Assembly (NCBI GenBank): GCA_937934595.1
Contig: CALGZA010000041.1
Span: 1-64,000, forward strand
DNA from: an uncultured Verrucomicrobiales bacterium
Lineage (GTDB): Bacteria; Verrucomicrobiota; Verrucomicrobiia; Verrucomicrobiales; Akkermansiaceae
DNA: 64,000 nt
Direction: 5' to 3'
Part shown: piece by piece, positions 8,822 to 18,314 of the stretch
Position numbering within the stretch: position 1 is the stretch's first letter
Layout of the letters: the number at the start of each line of letters is the position of its first letter
The notes under the pieces: generated by a model
Databases searched by the model: none
Seen by the model: only the letters and a program-made list of their open reading frames with translations
What the model was told of the DNA's origin: nothing
Program-made: the position numbers and the translations under genes

Positions 8822-9922
8822 GTGCTCAGGTTCGACCGCTACATCGCAAAAAACATCTTCACTACGACGCTATTCGCCGTAGCGATACTCAGCGGCGTAT
8901 TCATGCTCGGAAACATCTTCAAAGAAGCACGCCCCCTCTTCGTAGGGAAGCACCCCTCCCCACTCCTCGTCCTAGAATTCATCATTAGTGTGCTCCCATT
9001 CTCACTAATGTTCACCATCCCATTCAGCTTCCTAGCTGCCGTCATGCTTGTCTTCGGCAGACTCTCCGCTGATAACGAAATCCTCTCCATGAGAATGTCA
9101 GGACAAGGACTTCTCCGTATCGCCCTCCCAGTATTCATCGTCGCAGCCATACTATCAGCATTCTGTTTCTGGCTAAACGTCGAAATTGCACCAAAAGCCA
9201 AATCCAGAGTCAAATCCCTCCTCTACGAAGCAGTAAAAGAAGACCCTAACAAATTCCTAGACCCAGGAGTCGTCCAGACACAACTCAAAGATAAACGTAT
9301 CTACGTCAGAGCCAGAAAAGGTAACACCCTCTTCGGCCTCCACATCCACGACATCGCAGCACTAGATAAAAACTTCGCATCAAACACATACATCTACGCA
9401 GAATCCGCACTCATCCATGTCGACATGGAAACCAACCAAATCAAACTAAAACTAAAAGACTCATTCATCTTCGCAAAAGACTCTAACGGAACCAGAACAC
9501 CCATCAAAGTAGCAGACGTAGACCCAGTCATATTCTCCTTTGATAACAAAAAGAAACGCCGCATAAAAGCCTCCTCCATGACCAACTCGGAAATAACAGC
9601 ATACCTCGCCACTAACCCAGAAATCTCCGATAAAAAAAGAGCCAAACTCACCAACGCCGTCACATCCAGACAATCATTCTCACTCGCATGCCTCGCATTC
9701 GCACTCGTCGGTGTTCCACTCGGCATCGGATCCCGCAGAAAAGAAACCTCCACCGGATTCATTCTCAGCCTAATCATCGGTCTAGGCTACTTCCTATTCC
9801 ACATCTTCGCAGGAAAAATAAAAGACAATACCAGCAACCTAGCAGAAATTCTTTTCTGGCTACCTAACCTCCTAGCACTCATAATAGCCATTTGGTTATT
9901 TAGAAAAGCCCGCTCAAAGTAA
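8822..9922 (+). CDS. LptF/LptG family lipopolysaccharide export permease
   Basis: A 366-residue inner-membrane protein of the YjgP/YjgQ family. With LptB and LptC these proteins extract LPS from the inner membrane and drive it along the periplasmic bridge. The N-terminus (LRFDRYIAKNIFTTTLFAVA) is typical. Three N-terminal helices lie in about 15-120, a periplasmic beta-jellyroll domain in about 130-260 and three C-terminal helices from about 280. The start is GTG at 8822. Only one such gene is present here, so LptF and LptG cannot be told apart; the partner must be elsewhere. Confidence 0.88.
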   Translation: MLRFDRYIAKNIFTTTLFAVAILSGVFMLGNIFKEARPLFVGKHPSPLLVLEFIISVLPFSLMFTIPFSFLAAVMLVFGRLSADNEILSMRMSGQGLLRIALPVFIVAAILSAFCFWLNVEIAPKAKSRVKSLLYEAVKEDPNKFLDPGVVQTQLKDKRIYVRARKGNTLFGLHIHDIAALDKNFASNTYIYAESALIHVDMETNQIKLKLKDSFIFAKDSNGTRTPIKVADVDPVIFSFDNKKKRRIKASSMTNSEITAYLATNPEISDKKRAKLTNAVTSRQSFSLACLAFALVGVPLGIGSRRKETSTGFILSLIIGLGYFLFHIFAGKIKDNTSNLAEILFWLPNLLALIIAIWLFRKARSK

Positions 9923-9955
9923 CATACAACAACTAAGCAAGAGATACTAATCCTG

Positions 9956-11839
9956 ATGCAACCCATCCGTAAAATCCTCAATAAAGCAACAAACGCACTC
10001 AAACTGTTCTTCACAGAAAACAGCATCCAAATCTTCCCCGCCAAAAGCGCCATCAAGAACTACAAAAAAAACGATATCAAATACGATATCAAAGCAGCAT
10101 TCAACGTCGCCCTCCTAGCTCTTCCACAAGGAATGGCATACGCCGCCATCGCAGACCTTCCCATCTACTACGGCATCATCAGCTCCATCATAGCATCCAT
10201 CATAGCCCCTCTATTCTCCAGCTCTCGCCACACCATCCTAGGCCCCACCAATGCCACCTCCCTCATGGTATTCACCTTCTTCGCATCCTCAGCCGCTTCC
10301 AGCATGGACAAAGACGCCATCTTCTACATGCCCCTTCTCGTATTCCTCGTCGGCATCATCTCAGTCATAGGCGCTCTCTTCAAAATCGCAGACCTCCTCC
10401 AGTTCGTCTCCCGCAGCGTATTAGTAGGATACATCACAGGCGCATCATTCCTCATCATGAACGGACAGTTTAAACACATCGTCGGCGTCGCTGAACCACT
10501 CAAACAAATCATCGAATCAAACAGAGACAACAACCAAGCAGTTAACTTCTTCACCAACTTCTTCGACCTCACAACACTCTGGGAACAATTCCAATGGCAA
10601 CCCATAATCATTGGCATCCTAACCCTAGCACTATACCTCTACCTCATGAGAAAGCTACCCATGCTTCCTAACTTCGCTCTCTGCCTTACCATATCATCCA
10701 TCATCGCTCTCACCCTCAAAACTACAACTGGCAACTTTAACCTAGAATGCTTCCAGTCATTCCAAATCGATAACTTCTCACCAGCTCTTCCAGAATTCAA
10801 ATTCAACGACATCGCTGCCCTCATCAGCGTCGCATTCGCCATCGCATTCCTCGCCTCACTAGAAAACACCGTCATGGGTAAATCCCTCGGAAGCAGAACC
10901 GGAGAAAGACCAGACGTCAACCAAGACATGTTCTCAGTAGGCATGGCTAACATCGCCTGCTCACTCCTCGCACCCATGCCAGCATCAGGCTCACTAACTC
11001 GATCAGCTCTAAACTTCGAATCAAACGCCAAATCCAGATTCTCATCCATCTACTCTGGTATCCTCTGCATCATCGGCTTCTACCTACTCCTAAAACTCCC
11101 ACTCGTAGAAAACATCCCTAAAGCCACTCTAGCAGCACTCGTCATCGGAATCGCCATATCACTCATCAAATGGAAAAACATCCGCATCTGCCTTCACTCC
11201 ACCAGAGATGATGCCATCGTCATCATCGTCACATTCGCTGCCACACTCATCACCAGACTAGACTCAGCCATCTTCATCGGAGTCGCCCTATCCATATCTC
11301 TATTCCTAAGAAAAGCATCACGCCCGCACCTCGTCGAATACGAAGTCAATGACGAAGGTAACTTCCGCGAACGTGACAACAAAAACGCTCGCCCTAACCC
11401 CGCCATATCCATCGTGCACGTCGAAGGTAACCTCTACTTCGGTGCCGCAGACCTCTTCAGAACTCAAGTACAACTCACAGCATCAGACCCCAACCTCAAA
11501 ATAATCATCCTACGCATGAAAAATGCTCGCCACCTAGACGCCACATCAGTAATGGCTCTAGATGACCTCATCAAACACATGCGTAAACAAGGCAGACACG
11601 TCATCATCTCAGGAGCCACCAGAAACGTCTACATCGTACTCAAACAATCAGGCGTTCTAGAAACCATCCTAGACGGCTGCGATAGATCTCAAGGTGAAAC
11701 CAACCTCTTCTTCTCATCACCAAGTAACCCAAACCTCTCCACCAGAGACGCCCTCATCAGAGCCCAAGAACTACTCGGAACCAAAAACGCAGACATCAAA
11801 ATATTCTTCGACGCTAACCAAAATAAAAAATCAAAATAG
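9956..11839 (+). CDS. SulP family anion transporter with STAS domain
   Basis: A 627-residue member of the SLC26/SulP family of sulfate, bicarbonate or other anion carriers. The transmembrane domain starts at about residue 45 with ALLALPQGMAYAAIADLP (the family motif near helix 1) and includes MPASGSLTRSALNFESNAKS. A C-terminal STAS domain spans about 480-590 (SIVHVEGNLYFGAADLF ... ARHLDATSVMALDDL). A charged linker of about 20 residues precedes STAS. Substrate cannot be assigned; no sulfate-assimilation or carbonic-anhydrase gene lies nearby. It converges with the DUF1704 gene, with 18 nt between stops. Confidence 0.9.
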   Translation: MQPIRKILNKATNALKLFFTENSIQIFPAKSAIKNYKKNDIKYDIKAAFNVALLALPQGMAYAAIADLPIYYGIISSIIASIIAPLFSSSRHTILGPTNATSLMVFTFFASSAASSMDKDAIFYMPLLVFLVGIISVIGALFKIADLLQFVSRSVLVGYITGASFLIMNGQFKHIVGVAEPLKQIIESNRDNNQAVNFFTNFFDLTTLWEQFQWQPIIIGILTLALYLYLMRKLPMLPNFALCLTISSIIALTLKTTTGNFNLECFQSFQIDNFSPALPEFKFNDIAALISVAFAIAFLASLENTVMGKSLGSRTGERPDVNQDMFSVGMANIACSLLAPMPASGSLTRSALNFESNAKSRFSSIYSGILCIIGFYLLLKLPLVENIPKATLAALVIGIAISLIKWKNIRICLHSTRDDAIVIIVTFAATLITRLDSAIFIGVALSISLFLRKASRPHLVEYEVNDEGNFRERDNKNARPNPAISIVHVEGNLYFGAADLFRTQVQLTASDPNLKIIILRMKNARHLDATSVMALDDLIKHMRKQGRHVIISGATRNVYIVLKQSGVLETILDGCDRSQGETNLFFSSPSNPNLSTRDALIRAQELLGTKNADIKIFFDANQNKKSK

Positions 11840-11857
11840 AGCAACTAAATACCCACA

Positions 11858-13864
11858 TCATTCCAATCCACTTATAATATAATCAAAAACCTCATTCTTC
11901 ACCCGCGCTGGATTCGCTAAACTCTTAGTCACATACCTCGGCGCATCAATGATATCACGATCTATCATCTCCATAATCACATCATAATACTCAACAGAAG
12001 TCTTACCCACCAGCAAAGGAACCAGACTCACACCAGATTTCCACATCTTCAACATATCCACAAAACCACACAAATATAAATAATCCTTTGTAAAACCTCC
12101 TCCTCTAAAAACCCGAGTAACAACAGTATAAGAATCAACCTCAGACAACCCATGCTCTCTCACTAAATAATGAAAACACTCAATAAAATCAGCTCCACAA
12201 CACATCATATCCGTTACAACAACGCGTAACGCTATCTTCCTTAACCTCGATAAAGTCATATTCCCACTCAAATACTCCGCCAATAAAGCAATTCCCTCCT
12301 GAGTCTTCGTATTCACCGGCAAACCTAAATAAAACAACTTTAACTTCTCAGCAACCGAGTTCTGAGTAGTAACCATATGCACACCTATCTCATGCTCGAT
12401 TAATGCATCCACCTCCTTATAAGTAAACTTAGCATCAGGACGTATCATAATCGTTTTCTTCGAATTCAATACCATTACCTGAGAAATCACCCTCTCACTC
12501 ATCTCAAGCTTACAGTCAATGCCATAATCCTTCAAGCCTACTCTAAATGCATCAATGGCATCAGCGATAGGCATCACAGGCATCCGCTTAGGCTCTGATG
12601 GCACACCAGGTAAATGCAAAACATACTGAGCATTCTGTAAATCCTTCTTACTAGGCCTACCAAAATAACGTAAAGAATTATAAAGAAACTTCCGTGTTCC
12701 AAGACTAGATAACAAGTCCACCTTATCAAAATGACTACTTATCACAGACTCATAAAGCGCCCTAATACTAACATCAGATATATCCTGAATCTTAATCGAA
12801 CCCAGCTGCTGCTTTAACTCAAAAGCATGCACCCTCATAGGAGAATACTTAAATCTAGGAACCTCAGTAAACTTACTACGGAAAAACCTCTTCTGCTCAG
12901 ACCTAGTATTAATAGGATTAACATAAGCCAAAAGCTCAAAACCCTTGAGCAACCTATACATCTTCCTATCTACAGAAAAAATAGCAGGATCATGCTTCTT
13001 ATCTAATAAATGAGACACACTCTTAGGATACGTATTCGTATTATCTGCACTAAAAAACTGTGCACTATTCAAAATCGCCTGCTTTAGACTATGCTGTACC
13101 TCAGTAATAACCTCCGGAAAATCTACACCCGTCAACTCATCACAATAAACCTTCTTAATCTCAGTCGCTAAAACCAACGTATCCGGAAAATGATCAGTTA
13201 TATACCTCAATACATAACCTCGACCACGAAATACATCATTCTCAGAAGTTACATTCTCAATGCCTGATAAACTTATCATACTAAGCTCAGATTTCCAATT
13301 CGCTATAACCGATGAAAACCGCTCTTTATCAACAAACTCTGTCCCTAAATTAAAAAGAGGAACACTCCTATTCCACCTCTGATAATTATAAGAATGCAGA
13401 TCATAGACTACGCTCCCCTTGAACAAATCATTAAGCTTACTCAACAAAACATAAACTACTTTAAAAAAGTTTGTATGCTTTCGTAAACTAACCTGCCGCT
13501 GCTTATTCGTAAGCTTCCGCCTCCACACCTTCTTACCCCATGCCACATCATAAATACACTCCTCAGGTGACCTATTAAGATCATACTCAAACCTAGAATC
13601 CAAAGCAGTTATAGTTATCGGAAGAGAATCTATAAATCTACCCGTATGCGGATCCTCCTCATACCACCTCTCATACTCATCTAAAAGCATATCGCCCTTT
13701 AAATCACTGCGCAATTTCCCTCCATCATGAATCGCCATACAGCAAAATGGCACATAACGACTTATTTTAATCACAAAAGAACCATCAGCAGACTCCGCCT
13801 CAAAAGTCTGCTCGCTCTTGATCAAACTCAATATCTCACTTATCTCAAGAGCTTGCATTATCAA
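11858..13864 (-). CDS. N-formylglutamate-amidohydrolase-like domain fused to DUF1704 (QEGLA/MATCAP-like) peptidase
   Basis: A 668-residue two-part protein. Residues about 25-270 resemble N-formylglutamate amidohydrolases: CMAIHDGG (His46), an acidic stretch at 60-72, ALDSRFEYDLNR (87-98) and VVYDLHSYN (152-160, His157), matching the zinc-site pattern of that family. Residues about 300-660 match DUF1704, annotated in bacteria as 'flavohemoglobin expression-modulating QEGLA motif protein', with the zincin motif HEIGVH (491-496) and TQEGIALLAEY (521-531). DUF1704 includes the animal tubulin tyrosine carboxypeptidase MATCAP. The start codon lies inside the upstream GshB-like gene (20-nt overlap), implying translational coupling. 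Predicted cytoplasmic, with no signal peptide. The two domains are more often separate neighbouring genes (recollection). Natural substrate unknown; removal of a terminal amino acid or an acyl-glutamate-like group is inferred. Confidence 0.75.
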   Translation of the reverse strand: MIMQALEISEILSLIKSEQTFEAESADGSFVIKISRYVPFCCMAIHDGGKLRSDLKGDMLLDEYERWYEEDPHTGRFIDSLPITITALDSRFEYDLNRSPEECIYDVAWGKKVWRRKLTNKQRQVSLRKHTNFFKVVYVLLSKLNDLFKGSVVYDLHSYNYQRWNRSVPLFNLGTEFVDKERFSSVIANWKSELSMISLSGIENVTSENDVFRGRGYVLRYITDHFPDTLVLATEIKKVYCDELTGVDFPEVITEVQHSLKQAILNSAQFFSADNTNTYPKSVSHLLDKKHDPAIFSVDRKMYRLLKGFELLAYVNPINTRSEQKRFFRSKFTEVPRFKYSPMRVHAFELKQQLGSIKIQDISDVSIRALYESVISSHFDKVDLLSSLGTRKFLYNSLRYFGRPSKKDLQNAQYVLHLPGVPSEPKRMPVMPIADAIDAFRVGLKDYGIDCKLEMSERVISQVMVLNSKKTIMIRPDAKFTYKEVDALIEHEIGVHMVTTQNSVAEKLKLFYLGLPVNTKTQEGIALLAEYLSGNMTLSRLRKIALRVVVTDMMCCGADFIECFHYLVREHGLSEVDSYTVVTRVFRGGGFTKDYLYLCGFVDMLKMWKSGVSLVPLLVGKTSVEYYDVIMEMIDRDIIDAPRYVTKSLANPARVKNEVFDYIISGLE

Positions 13865-14885
13865 TCAAAATTTCCGGCCTAAAATCCTCCTTCAACTCAT
13901 TCCGACTCTCCACAACCGCCTCCAAATAATCTACTATCTTACGCTGTAACTTCACTTTATTCAGTCGATTTATATCAGTTATAGTTCCAGGACTCATCAC
14001 ATTAACCTCAATCAACTTCCCGTTAATCAAATCTAATCCAGCATAATAAATCCCATCACGAACCAGCTTTTCACCAATTTTATGACATAGTATCTTGTCA
14101 TCCTTTGTTAACTTATACTTCTCTACTGATCCACCAGTAGATATATTAGATCGCACATCTCCCGAACAAGGACGCCGCCTTAATGCTCCAATAGGCTCCC
14201 CATTTAACATCAATACTCGCACATCACCCTCTTCAGCACCCTCTATATACTCTTGAAGAATAACATACTTAGATATATCCTTATCCCTATTAACATAAAA
14301 ATCTAACAAAGATCGGATATTAGCCATCGCGGACTTCTCAATCACTATAACGCCACTACCACCATACCCATCCAGTGGCTTCATGATCATCTTATCATTT
14401 TCAGACTCCTTAATTATCCTCAAAAGATACTCTATATTCTTTGAAACATGAGTCACCGGTATGAGCTCTCTGTTTGGATCATAATAAGCAGCCGTATAAA
14501 TTTTATTGTTAGACTTCCTCAGACCATCGATCGCATTAATCGTAAAAACATCATCTTTTATAGAATCCAAAAAATTCAACACTAACCCATCTAAAGGAGG
14601 ATTATCCCTCATAAAAATAACATCAAAATCCTTCAGTTCCTGCATTTCAACATCAAATACAGCATTATTATAAAAAGCAGACAGACTAGATGAAACCTTA
14701 TCCGTCACTACAAATTTCTTACACAGACTGAGTGTCAGACTATCCCTAATCGTGAGATTACTCGGATGAGTGATCGACACCTCATGCCCACGCCTCACTG
14801 ACTCATGAATAATTCTTAACGTCGAATCCTGTGCAGGATCCACTCGCTCCCATGGATACATGATGAAACATAACTTTATCTTCAT
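13845..14885 (-). CDS. GshB-like ATP-grasp ligase
   Basis: A 346-residue ATP-grasp enzyme resembling prokaryotic glutathione synthase. The N-terminal domain begins LCFIMYPWERVDPAQDST and contains IFMRDNPPLDGL (the counterpart of the MDPP motif of GshB). The ATP-grasp core shows MKPLDGYGGSGVIVIEK, VILQEYIEGAEEGDVRVL, GALRRRP, SNISTGGS and the metal-binding end LIEVNVMSPGTI. No gshA-type glutamate-cysteine ligase is nearby, and the gene overlaps the amidohydrolase/DUF1704 fusion. It therefore more likely joins an amino acid to a peptide or protein end than makes free glutathione (inference). True glutathione synthesis cannot be excluded. The minus-strand sequence before the ATG lacks a clear Shine-Dalgarno sequence. 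Confidence 0.8.
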   Translation of the reverse strand: MKIKLCFIMYPWERVDPAQDSTLRIIHESVRRGHEVSITHPSNLTIRDSLTLSLCKKFVVTDKVSSSLSAFYNNAVFDVEMQELKDFDVIFMRDNPPLDGLVLNFLDSIKDDVFTINAIDGLRKSNNKIYTAAYYDPNRELIPVTHVSKNIEYLLRIIKESENDKMIMKPLDGYGGSGVIVIEKSAMANIRSLLDFYVNRDKDISKYVILQEYIEGAEEGDVRVLMLNGEPIGALRRRPCSGDVRSNISTGGSVEKYKLTKDDKILCHKIGEKLVRDGIYYAGLDLINGKLIEVNVMSPGTITDINRLNKVKLQRKIVDYLEAVVESRNELKEDFRPEILIDNASS

Positions 14886-15081
14886 AATTCTTGTAAACTA
14901 TGCAGCTATCCATAATTACCTTTTACCACATTACGAAAGATGCTTTTAAAACTAATTAATATTTTAACAAAGTTACTGATACTTGATAAAAACCAAAACA
15001 CAATCCCAAAATAGAGCAACACATACCAATAAATGAGATTCTCAGGCACACACCCCAAGAATCACAATTTCATCAAAAAAA

Positions 15082-16749
15082 TTATATCACCTTCCTCATA
15101 CAATAGATCATAACCTCACAAGGCTTAAGCCTATCTAGCTCCATGCTCTCATACTCATAATCACCCATCCACCTGCGCGCATTCTTTGAGAACCATATAT
15201 CCACATTATGCATTGTCTCCGTTGGATGAAAATTAATAACCACCAAATAAGCCTGCCGGCTCTTCTTATCATATCGTAAAAAACCATACAACCAGTGCCC
15301 ACTCACATTCTCCCCAGCCAGCCGCCCATAATGGGGATTATCATTATTAAATGAATTCAAACCATACGTCTCACCTTCACGAAACGCTGGCTCCTGTAGC
15401 ACATTAAGCCACCTCCCATACCACTCCCTTAACTCACGCTGTTCATCACTAAGTCCTGAACCATCATAAGAATGGCCACTTACCCACTTCTGCAGCTCCG
15501 GAACAGCAGTATAATCAAATATACTCGTCCGCCCATCGTCTCCACTATAACCCTGAGAACCCAGCGCACGCTCACCCACTTCCTGCCCGTTATAGACCAA
15601 ACAGCCACCACAACCTATTCCAAACAAAAAACCACTTACAGGCATACCTATATTCGCTCCATGCCCACCCCAATGATGAGGCGATGCAATGCGCACCTCA
15701 TCATGATTCTCAACATAACGAGTCATACTATGAAGCCTCTCAGTATCAAAAATAAAATCATCAAGATCGTTGGCCCACTTACCTGACTCATACAACCCCT
15801 TAATCAGATCATAACTCTTGCTATCATACATCTCATTGAATCCCGCATCAATAAGCTCCTTAAAAACATCACTCCTCCTTGGCGTAACCCGCATTGGATC
15901 TGCAGGATATGCCTCTGCTAAAAAATAAACACCAGAATCACGCTCACGCGCCCTACCCACAGCCCACTTCCAAAACTCCGAAGGCACCATATGAGCCATA
16001 TCACAACGAAAACCATCTACCCCCATCTCCTGCCAATACGCCAGAACTAAATCCATCTCATCCCATGTAGCTGGCCGCTTATCACCACCAAAATCACTCA
16101 CTCCACTCGTGAAATCATAACCATAATTAAGCTTCACCGTCTCATACCACTCATTCACCGTCGGACTATGTGTAACTGCATTATTACCCGTTACTCGAGG
16201 AGGACCTTCAGAACTATAACGCCCACCAGGTAAATACAAAGGATGCGCTAAATCTAAATAGTAAAAATGATTCCCTTTATCACAAAATAAATTCACATCA
16301 TCATTCCTACCAAAATTCCTCTCAGGATAAACATCACTATCATAAGCCCTTGAAACATGGTTAGGTATAAAATCAATCAACACCTTTAAACCGACATCAT
16401 GACAACGCTGAACTAACTCTTTAAACTCATCCAGCCTATTATCTACACATACAGCCAAATCTGGTGACACATCATAATAATCTTTCACCGCATAAGGACT
16501 ACCCGCTAACCCTTTAAGTATCAAATCAGAATCTGCAGGCCTGTCAGGATAAGCAGTACCACTAGCATGCTCTAATACACCTGTCAGCCAGATTTGCGTG
16601 AAACCTAATTTCTTAATCTCAGCTAAAGCCTTCGTATTAATATCTACAAACTTGCCACAACCATTGCGCTCAATATCTCCACCATCAGTACAAGTAGTGT
16701 TCAGATTACCAAAATGCCTAACAAACAGCTGATAAGTCGTCGCCTTCAT
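15082..16749 (-). CDS. Glycoside hydrolase family 13 alpha-amylase-like enzyme
   Basis: A 555-residue cytoplasmic GH13 protein with no signal peptide. The four conserved regions are present: VLIDFIPNHVSR (123-134), GVDGFRCDMAH (243-253, nucleophile Asp250), FLAEAYP (276-282, acid/base Glu279) and RYVENHDEVR (344-353, transition-state stabiliser Asp350). The final 80 residues look like the usual C-terminal beta-sandwich. It should act on alpha-1,4-glucans or maltooligosaccharides inside the cell. No glycogen or maltose genes flank it. It precedes the GshB-like gene by 196 nt on the same strand. Confidence 0.88.
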   Translation of the reverse strand: MKATTYQLFVRHFGNLNTTCTDGGDIERNGCGKFVDINTKALAEIKKLGFTQIWLTGVLEHASGTAYPDRPADSDLILKGLAGSPYAVKDYYDVSPDLAVCVDNRLDEFKELVQRCHDVGLKVLIDFIPNHVSRAYDSDVYPERNFGRNDDVNLFCDKGNHFYYLDLAHPLYLPGGRYSSEGPPRVTGNNAVTHSPTVNEWYETVKLNYGYDFTSGVSDFGGDKRPATWDEMDLVLAYWQEMGVDGFRCDMAHMVPSEFWKWAVGRARERDSGVYFLAEAYPADPMRVTPRRSDVFKELIDAGFNEMYDSKSYDLIKGLYESGKWANDLDDFIFDTERLHSMTRYVENHDEVRIASPHHWGGHGANIGMPVSGFLFGIGCGGCLVYNGQEVGERALGSQGYSGDDGRTSIFDYTAVPELQKWVSGHSYDGSGLSDEQRELREWYGRWLNVLQEPAFREGETYGLNSFNNDNPHYGRLAGENVSGHWLYGFLRYDKKSRQAYLVVINFHPTETMHNVDIWFSKNARRWMGDYEYESMELDRLKPCEVMIYCMRKVI

Positions 16750-16961
16750 TACGCCACTAGTAGACCCTCCATCTCCTCACCATTAACAACACATGCACTT
16801 GACTGAATCCACGCAAATACAAATACACAATCAGTACACCTAGCCCACTGAATCTCACTAAAATAACTTGTATCTATTTTGATTGCTAACATTCTCACTA
16901 ATTATCCGATTTTAAATATCCTAAAAAAATTCCAGCGCCTAACCAAAGGCCTAATAACCAA

Positions 16962-18314
16962 CTACTCCACAGGCACCGCTTTAGGAGGCACTCGCCGTGG
17001 AACCTTATTTACCGGCAAATCATCTTCCACCAGTAATGCCCTGGGAGGCTTAACAGGTTTATATAGCTCCTTTTCTATAGCAGGATCAGAAAGCTCAAGC
17101 AGCTCAGGATTACTCTCTATAGCTACAGAATCATCTTCCACTAACAAAGCCTTAGGCGGCTTAACCACTCTAGCCCTTCTAACAGCCGGAACCTCACCCA
17201 ATTCCTCTTTGTTTGGATTCCTCAAAGGTCTTATAACCCTAGCCTTCCTAACTACCCTCGGCTTTTGCTTAATACCATTATCAGACGGTGCACTTTTACG
17301 CATCTTTATCTCCACGCGCCGGTTAATCGCCTGCGCCACTTTATCACCCCCAGCTACTACAGGCTGAGACTCTCCAAGTCCCCTCACATACAACCGATCC
17401 TCAGATACCTTCATCGACTTTATCAACCAATCCTTAACCGCATAAGCCCTCGCAAGAGATAATCTACTATTCGCCTCATCACTGCCAATCAAATCCGTAT
17501 GCCCCTCTATCCAACATTTCATAGTAGGATTCTTATCTATAATCAAAACAACCTTAAGCAAGCTACTCTTAGCACTCTCGCGTAAAGTCGCCTCATTAAA
17601 GTCAAATAACAGATCAGAACCTATCATCCCCTTAGCCTTCTCAAGCTCAGACTGAGAAAGATTCGTCATCTGTGCCAGAGGTGTAAAACCCTTTATCACT
17701 CCATCAGATGCATCACCACCAGCCCCTTTGGCCAACTCTGTATTAAAACGATCAGGATCAAACTCATCAGCCGCTTGTTTCCCAGGATCAATAGTTAATT
17801 GACCCACCTCAGGCTTCAAAAAATCATCAGTACTCCCTATATCTTCAATGCTTTCATTAAAATCAATACCAGACGTAAGATCCGCAGCGCTTGAATCCTT
17901 GCTCCCAGCCAGTGCCATTGCCTCAGTCGGTGCAGATATAGCCACATCATCCATGGTAGGAGAAAAATCAATCTCCATCTTATCAATAGAATCATCTTCT
18001 ATCTCCAACTCCTTAACCAAGCTTTCCACAGCCTCAACAGGATCCGCTAACGCTTCGCTCTCAACCTCACTAGGAACCTCTATATATTCCTTATCCGCCA
18101 CACTCCTCACAACAACACTCCGTGTAACTAACTCCTCAGATCCTTTAGAACTTAAAAAAATTGGAATCTTCTGCATAGCTAACAAAACTATCAAATGACA
18201 AGCTATAGCCAGAATTACAGCTACAAAAATCCAGCGAGACACACCACCCTGACGGGACACCTGTCTACCTGCACCATATCGCACACTCTTCCAGTTATAA
18301 CTATTATCTAACAT
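16962..18314 (-). CDS. Membrane-anchored protein with OmpA peptidoglycan-binding domain and repeat tail
   Basis: A 450-residue protein. Residues about 28-48 form one membrane helix after a basic cytoplasmic stretch, so the rest should be periplasmic and tethered to the inner membrane. Residues 50-210 are acidic and probably disordered. Residues 232-338 are an OmpA-type domain: SDLLFDFNEATLRESAK, then WIEGHTDLIGSDEANSRLSL with the Asp and Arg that bind diaminopimelate, ending NRRVEIKM. The tail (350-450) is basic and Pro-rich with repeats VKPPKALLVEDD (384-395), VKPPRALLVEDD (421-432) and a shorter VPPKAVPVE at the end. The order fits a MotB-like or TonB-like cell-wall link rather than a porin. 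It lies about 500 nt downstream of the pilus/secretion cluster. Confidence 0.8.
   Translation of the reverse strand: MLDNSYNWKSVRYGAGRQVSRQGGVSRWIFVAVILAIACHLIVLLAMQKIPIFLSSKGSEELVTRSVVVRSVADKEYIEVPSEVESEALADPVEAVESLVKELEIEDDSIDKMEIDFSPTMDDVAISAPTEAMALAGSKDSSAADLTSGIDFNESIEDIGSTDDFLKPEVGQLTIDPGKQAADEFDPDRFNTELAKGAGGDASDGVIKGFTPLAQMTNLSQSELEKAKGMIGSDLLFDFNEATLRESAKSSLLKVVLIIDKNPTMKCWIEGHTDLIGSDEANSRLSLARAYAVKDWLIKSMKVSEDRLYVRGLGESQPVVAGGDKVAQAINRRVEIKMRKSAPSDNGIKQKPRVVRKARVIRPLRNPNKEELGEVPAVRRARVVKPPKALLVEDDSVAIESNPELLELSDPAIEKELYKPVKPPRALLVEDDLPVNKVPRRVPPKAVPVE

Follow-up and report, generated by a model that had tools for sequence, protein, structure and literature searches.

The window, a stretch of 64,000 nucleotides from an uncultured Verrucomicrobiales bacterium, carries on its reverse strand two overlapping genes, one for an ATP-grasp ligase resembling glutathione synthetase (GshB) and one for a protein that joins an amidohydrolase-like half to a DUF1704 metallopeptidase half (Table 1). 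Both reading frames lie where the first-pass annotation had placed them, and every motif quoted there is found. That annotation had also described a 20-nt overlap with a 668-residue protein; the overlap itself stands, but its extent probably does not. Most close relatives in the alignment begin at the column of ATG 13858, two codons past TTG 13864, for which reason we regard this ATG as the probable start; the fused protein would then have 666 residues and overlap the ligase gene by 14 nt. Residue numbers nevertheless follow the TTG-based (668-aa) numbering of the earlier description. Downstream of the fused gene lies a convergent gene of the sulfate-permease family, identified by its Pfam profile, and upstream of the module an alpha-amylase-family gene (15082-16749) that remains below all NCBIfam equivalog cut-offs. 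No Rfam elements were found in 9000-18000. Throughout the whole window (1-64000), over genes on both strands, GC skew is very strongly negative (-0.29 to -0.59 per 2 kb) and AT skew is positive.

Table 1. Features of the module and its surroundings in the window, with sulfurtransferase-like genes of related loci (L-numbers)
Feature	Position	Strand	Basis or remark
GshB-like ATP-grasp ligase (P0002), 346 aa	13845..14885	-	Pfam/NCBIfam profiles, AlphaFold2 model
Fused amidohydrolase-metallopeptidase, 666 aa	11858..13858	-	Probable ATG start; TTG at 13864 gives 668 aa
N-formylglutamate-amidohydrolase-like domain, residues 27-276, M14-like fold	13037..13786	-	PF05013; 2q7s, 2odf
HDGG motif (H46-G49)	13718..13729	-	H46, G48 in 31/31 intact relatives; lost in 17 group B pseudo-domains
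DSRFEYDLNR motif (89-98)	13571..13600	-	S90, R91, D95, N97, R98 in 31/31 intact relatives
YDLHSYN motif (154-160)	13385..13405	-	H157 in 30/31 intact relatives; mostly W in pseudo-domains
MATCAP/DUF1704 (QEGLA) metallopeptidase domain, residues 312-668	11861..12931	-	PF08014, TIGR02421, 7z5g
HEIGVH zinc motif (H491, E492, H496)	12377..12394	-	Aligned with HEIGTH of human MATCAP
E523 of TQEGIA, putative third metal ligand	12296..12298	-	Aligned with EEG motif of KIAA0895L
Possible promoter (extended -10) upstream of ligase gene	14961..14989	-	Consensus match only; region has fewer such matches than shuffles
Possible terminator of upstream amylase-like gene, parting it from module	15037..15063	-	Pattern match; region: 4 observed vs 1.5 expected
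Sulfurtransferase-like genes	L092:3770-4609, L093:3802-4641, L100:8316-9137, L030:473-1309

What kind of ligase is this? It matches PF02955 (GSH-S_ATP, E 7.8e-51) and PF02951 (GSH-S_N, E 2.9e-22), and the RimK profile as well, and misses every curated NCBIfam cut-off, narrowly or widely. The score is slightly below the cut-off for NF009110/PRK12458 ‘glutathione synthetase’ (392.1 vs 408), and likewise falls short for the GshB equivalogs TIGR01380 (227.6 vs 299.05) and PRK05246 (267 vs 272) and for the RimK family TIGR00768 (87.3 vs 143.4). The AlphaFold2 model (pLDDT 83.1, 15 sequences) matches E. coli glutathione synthetase 1gsa with Z 31.7, RimK coming second with Z about 24, and residues K128, K169, R245, N247, D285, E293 and N295 are invariant in the 47 ligases compared. 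The ligase is nearest to GshB, not to tubulin-tyrosine ligase. It shares the fold, the N-terminal domain and the catalytic residues with GshB (1gsa) and PRK12458, but differs from GshB in lying below all equivalog cut-offs, in residing in a genome without GshA and in having a peptidase partner in nearly all loci of groups A and B, which are defined below.

This gene is the sole GSH-S_ATP gene of the window genome (95.9% complete), where neither GshA family (PF04262, PF04107) was found; both families are also absent from 12 of the 21 carrier genomes. Since the genome has no GshA of either family, glutathione synthesis is rejected for it. Public records name the genes glutathione synthetase and N-formylglutamate amidohydrolase, following which one would see here a true glutathione synthase beside unrelated hydrolases. 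We consider this very improbable, given the missing GshA, the missed TIGR01380 and PRK05246 cut-offs and a fused protein without a match to the HutG model.

The C-terminal half of the fused protein is matched by PF08014 at residues 325-663 with 302.5 bits against a cut-off of 27 (E 5.3e-90). It also scores slightly above the cut-off of TIGR02421 (341.9 vs 338.65), which makes it by curated standard a member of the ‘flavohemoglobin expression-modulating QEGLA motif protein’ family, a name that conveys no activity. In the AlphaFold2 model of the fused protein (pLDDT 89.4, pTM 0.80; 12 sequences of the window and relatives) this half has the fold of human MATCAP (7z5g: Z 25.9, rmsd 3.0, 295 residues, 20% identity). 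Residues H491, E492, H496 and E523 are kept in all 80 peptidase domains compared across groups A, B and C. The EEG motif of KIAA0895L, with which E523 aligns, has been named the third metal-binding residue (PMC10499314). A sequence match to MATCAP in the PDB was obtained with the window protein and the group A profile, and none with the one group B and one group C protein queried. Human TMCP1 and TMCP2 take off C-terminal Tyr and Glu, acting as detyrosinases and deglutamylases (PMC10499314). The window protein shares with human MATCAP/TMCP1 (KIAA0895L) the peptidase fold and the HExxxH motif with a downstream Glu, but belongs to a bacterial fusion and operon with no microtubule; by analogy, its MATCAP half is probably a C-terminal carboxypeptidase.

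The N-terminal half is matched by PF05013 (FGase) at residues 42-227 (42.8 bits vs cut-off 28.9, E 9e-11), and its model resembles 2q7s (Z 24.2, rmsd 2.4, 236 residues) and 2odf (Z 21.4). The next structural matches, at Z about 11, are M14-type enzymes, including succinylglutamate desuccinylase, carboxypeptidases and a phage poly-gamma-glutamate hydrolase. E235 is invariant in all 31 intact domains, and D95, N97 and R98 are deleted in 17 of 17 group B pseudo-domains. From their order along the chain, we tentatively equate N97-R98 with the carboxylate-binding Asn-Arg pair of M14 carboxypeptidases, H157 with a zinc His and E235 with the catalytic Glu of those enzymes. The window protein is absent from the matches to the HutG equivalog model TIGR02017 at E up to 0.001, and 5 of 12 stand-alone relatives match it only weakly (best 5.4e-5). 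A sequence-profile search of stand-alone amidohydrolases against the PDB returned nothing meaningful, although fold comparison did find a match. The domain has the fold and family signature of HutG-type N-formylglutamate amidohydrolases (2q7s, 2odf; PF05013), but lacks both the HutG equivalog match and a histidine-degradation context and represents a distinct subfamily. The metal sites of both hydrolase halves were judged by residue conservation rather than by geometry, and by the conservation of catalytic residues among relatives the active sites of the fused protein are intact. Profiles and predicted folds uphold all three identities put forward earlier: a GshB-like ATP-grasp ligase, an N-formylglutamate-amidohydrolase-like first half and a DUF1704 second half.

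PF08014 is found in 6 of 289 genomes of the same phylum, one of the six below cut-off. Among 395 Bacteroidota genomes, counting the centre genome, 19 have it. Three well-supported groups emerge from a maximum-likelihood tree built on the peptidase domain: A, mostly fused; B, of about 610-640 aa; and C, about 430 aa long and standing alone. All but one of the 19 Bacteroidota loci fall in A or B, and with one query-biased set of loci left out of the frequencies, the ligase gene belongs to the operon or is no more than about 1.2 kb away in 18/18 of them, while an amidohydrolase, fused or separate, is near the peptidase in 15/18. Ligase and amidohydrolase are both present at all five same-phylum loci above cut-off. 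Of the three outcomes that the first-pass annotation had named as refuting, none arose: linkage with ATP-grasp genes is conserved at these 18/18 and 5/5 A/B loci, the amidohydrolase match is significant and no catalytic residue is broken. In rhizobial and other plasmid records the genes follow the order amidohydrolase, QEGLA, glutathione synthetase, with the ligase in one instance falling in a stretch left unannotated, and TIGR02421 records in Rhizobiales, Burkholderiales and Vibrionaceae have the same operon partners as the window module. At the 35 group C loci, most of them viewed with 1.5 kb on each side, neither ligase nor amidohydrolase was found to be linked. Stand-alone 430-aa DUF1704 proteins of this group are frequent in Bdellovibrionota (L056-L085, L103), where 61 of 192 genomes have PF08014; the loci examined showed no partner gene in their vicinity.

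Pairwise distances of peptidase and ligase are correlated (Mantel r 0.86 over 43 pairs, 0/5000 permutations), also within group A (r 0.84) and within group B (r 0.79; 0/5000 permutations each). This co-variation is partly due to shared ancestry, and the gene pair is inherited together across several bacterial phyla. The amidohydrolase is absent from four operons, and one fused gene, in Vibrio sp. HDW18 (L013:7971-9962), has no adjacent ligase gene. Ligase and peptidase are the most constant partners; the amidohydrolase is usual, not universal. An all-against-all comparison of neighbours revealed no further partner gene shared across lineages, and a biosynthetic cluster with more conserved genes was rejected.

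The history of the fusion can be read from the degenerate copies. In group B proteins the N-terminal 240 residues are a decayed amidohydrolase (hhalign 98.1%, E 1.1e-13, 236 columns) without the metal and substrate motifs, and in most group B operons an intact amidohydrolase is encoded by a gene of its own. Group A proteins have an intact fused copy, which is split into two genes in a branch that contains Flavobacteriaceae. The simplest reading is that the fusion probably predates the split between A and B, and that the fused amidohydrolase of group B has become catalytically dead, to judge from its lost motifs, and has usually been replaced by a separate gene. Among TIGR02421 members the window protein stands apart from group B in having its amidohydrolase both fused and intact. 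The fusion had been taken as strengthening the link between the two hydrolases; it is indeed more than chance and probably ancestral to two clades, but by itself it is no proof of a shared substrate.

The window protein nests inside Bacteroidota fused sequences of group A, where it pairs with a Bacteroidia MAG (support 98/87, 62% domain identity), and the PF08014 search found no peptidase of its type in the listed genomes of the same family. The G+C content at its gene is 0.39-0.40 against 0.47 in the left flank. Tree position, absence from the family and lower G+C together fit horizontal acquisition, although G+C is also rather low in the next 8 kb rightward.

What could be the function of this module? 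Our search of open-licence papers found no functional description. Ligase and carboxypeptidase are almost never apart, which suggests opposing or sequential steps at one C-terminus, and the likeness of the ligase to GshB favours a small glutamate-containing peptide. We hypothesize, tentatively and at somewhat less than even chance, that this is a ligate-and-trim module controlling the amount of a probably small peptide that contains glutamate but is not glutathione. The GshB-like enzyme would activate the C-terminal carboxylate of the peptide with ATP and join an amino acid or another amine to it; the MATCAP-type metallopeptidase, with its HExxxH motif and downstream Glu, would take off a C-terminal residue; and the fused M14-fold amidohydrolase would cut the amide beside a free-carboxylate, glutamate-like residue. 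We infer these reactions, the common substrate and its small size. The ligate-and-remove idea proposed at the outset is supported in part: the pairing of ligase and carboxypeptidase holds, whereas action on one bond, a protein end as substrate and removal of an acylated glutamate by the amidohydrolase half are conjecture. The idea is refined in that these two are the most constant components and the amidohydrolase a frequent companion.

In view of RimK and the tubulin system, the substrate could conceivably be a protein tail. In that case some bacterial protein would receive an amino acid such as Glu at its C-terminus from the ligase and lose it again through the MATCAP and M14-like halves. 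All three folds have counterparts acting on the tubulin tail (TTL/TTLL ATP-grasp, MATCAP/TMCP, CCP), the second-nearest structure to the ligase is RimK, which joins Glu to protein C-termini (Z about 24, beside 25.9 for MATCAP and about 11 for the M14-like enzymes), and TMCPs are both detyrosinases and deglutamylases (PMC10499314). The window module shares with RimK and the TTL/MATCAP cycle the logic of ligase plus carboxypeptidase at a C-terminus, but its ligase is of GshB type, N-terminal domain included, and an orthologue of neither TTL nor RimK, and the neighbour comparison brought up no candidate target protein recurring beside the module. Such a role seems unlikely. Less likely still is its broadest form, a widespread bacterial C-terminal writer-eraser with tubulin-tail enzyme folds, from whose eraser MATCAP would derive.

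Some physiological clues come from Vibrionaceae. In Photobacterium damselae the adjacent genes A0J47_RS17020 and A0J47_RS17025, which bear the names GshB and QEGLA, rise 38.4- and 27.5-fold in 1% NaCl, with RimK and polyamine genes responding alongside (PMC10308900). From the adjacent locus tags and the arrangement in another Photobacterium record (L014) we infer that this is the group A pair of ligase and peptidase. The tie between peptidase and ligase suggests that this pair, so strongly induced at low salinity, has a function other than glutathione synthesis, and some lineages may use the module in low-salinity adaptation. The clade 2-specific genes of V. vulnificus include a COG3930 gene adjacent to one for glutathione synthetase (PMC3091676). 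Gamma-glutamylputrescine oxidase likewise belongs to the response of P. damselae to low salt (PMC10308900) and, with the polyamine genes and the FGase fold and motifs, could point to a module that breaks down N-acylated glutamyl compounds, the ligase acting in salvage. We regard this as rather improbable: the most constant partner is an ATP-consuming ligase, the amidohydrolase is dispensable, and no hut or transport genes recur nearby in the neighbour comparison.

In four Bacteroidota operons only, a 3-mercaptopyruvate-sulfurtransferase-like gene (CG[ST]G[IL]TA) separates the ligase gene from that of the amidohydrolase (Table 1), and some Bacteroidota modules may have a sulfurtransferase partner. 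Together with the GshB-like fold and loop of the ligase and the GshA-like genes of some carriers, this gene would suit a low-molecular-weight thiol pathway, in which the ligase makes a glutathione-like tripeptide from the dipeptide of an unrecognised enzyme and the hydrolases recycle it. The window genome and most examined carriers have no known GshA, however, and the sulfurtransferase is confined to a few Bacteroidota loci, so that we think this reading doubtful. Two of these operons (L092 and L093) carry an extra gene of 108-112 aa, the L092 copy without a family match.

Relatives of MATCAP are common in some bacterial groups under a name silent on activity. One clade is linked to a peptide ligase and bears an amidohydrolase domain, either live or dead; this gives the ligate-and-trim reading a handle on the substrate, because there the ligase product should equal the peptidase substrate. 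The module may also bear on the origin of the animal tubulin carboxypeptidases.

Several minor observations concern individual loci. MscS-type channel genes lie within 5 kb of the module at L010:520-1398, L012:9769-10650, L026:4540-6351 and L099:4816-6063, two of them directly adjacent; with four matches in about 660 kb, this linkage is suggestive only. Like the sulfurtransferase genes, the MscS neighbours are few and were noticed post hoc. An unannotated record of Pseudomonas phage Y1 (OQ572403.1:63533-64087) matches the QEGLA domain with 37.6% identity over query residues 472-645; phage origin of the module is rejected, this being one weak match in an unannotated phage record. The fused gene of L022:8112-9989 shows up as two ORFs, which indicates a disrupted gene or a sequencing error. 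In one genome (L011:4730-15985) the QEGLA-ligase pair occurs three times in tandem beside a single amidohydrolase gene, which speaks for the pairing; the copies are 44-55% identical in the peptidase and 66-73% in the ligase.
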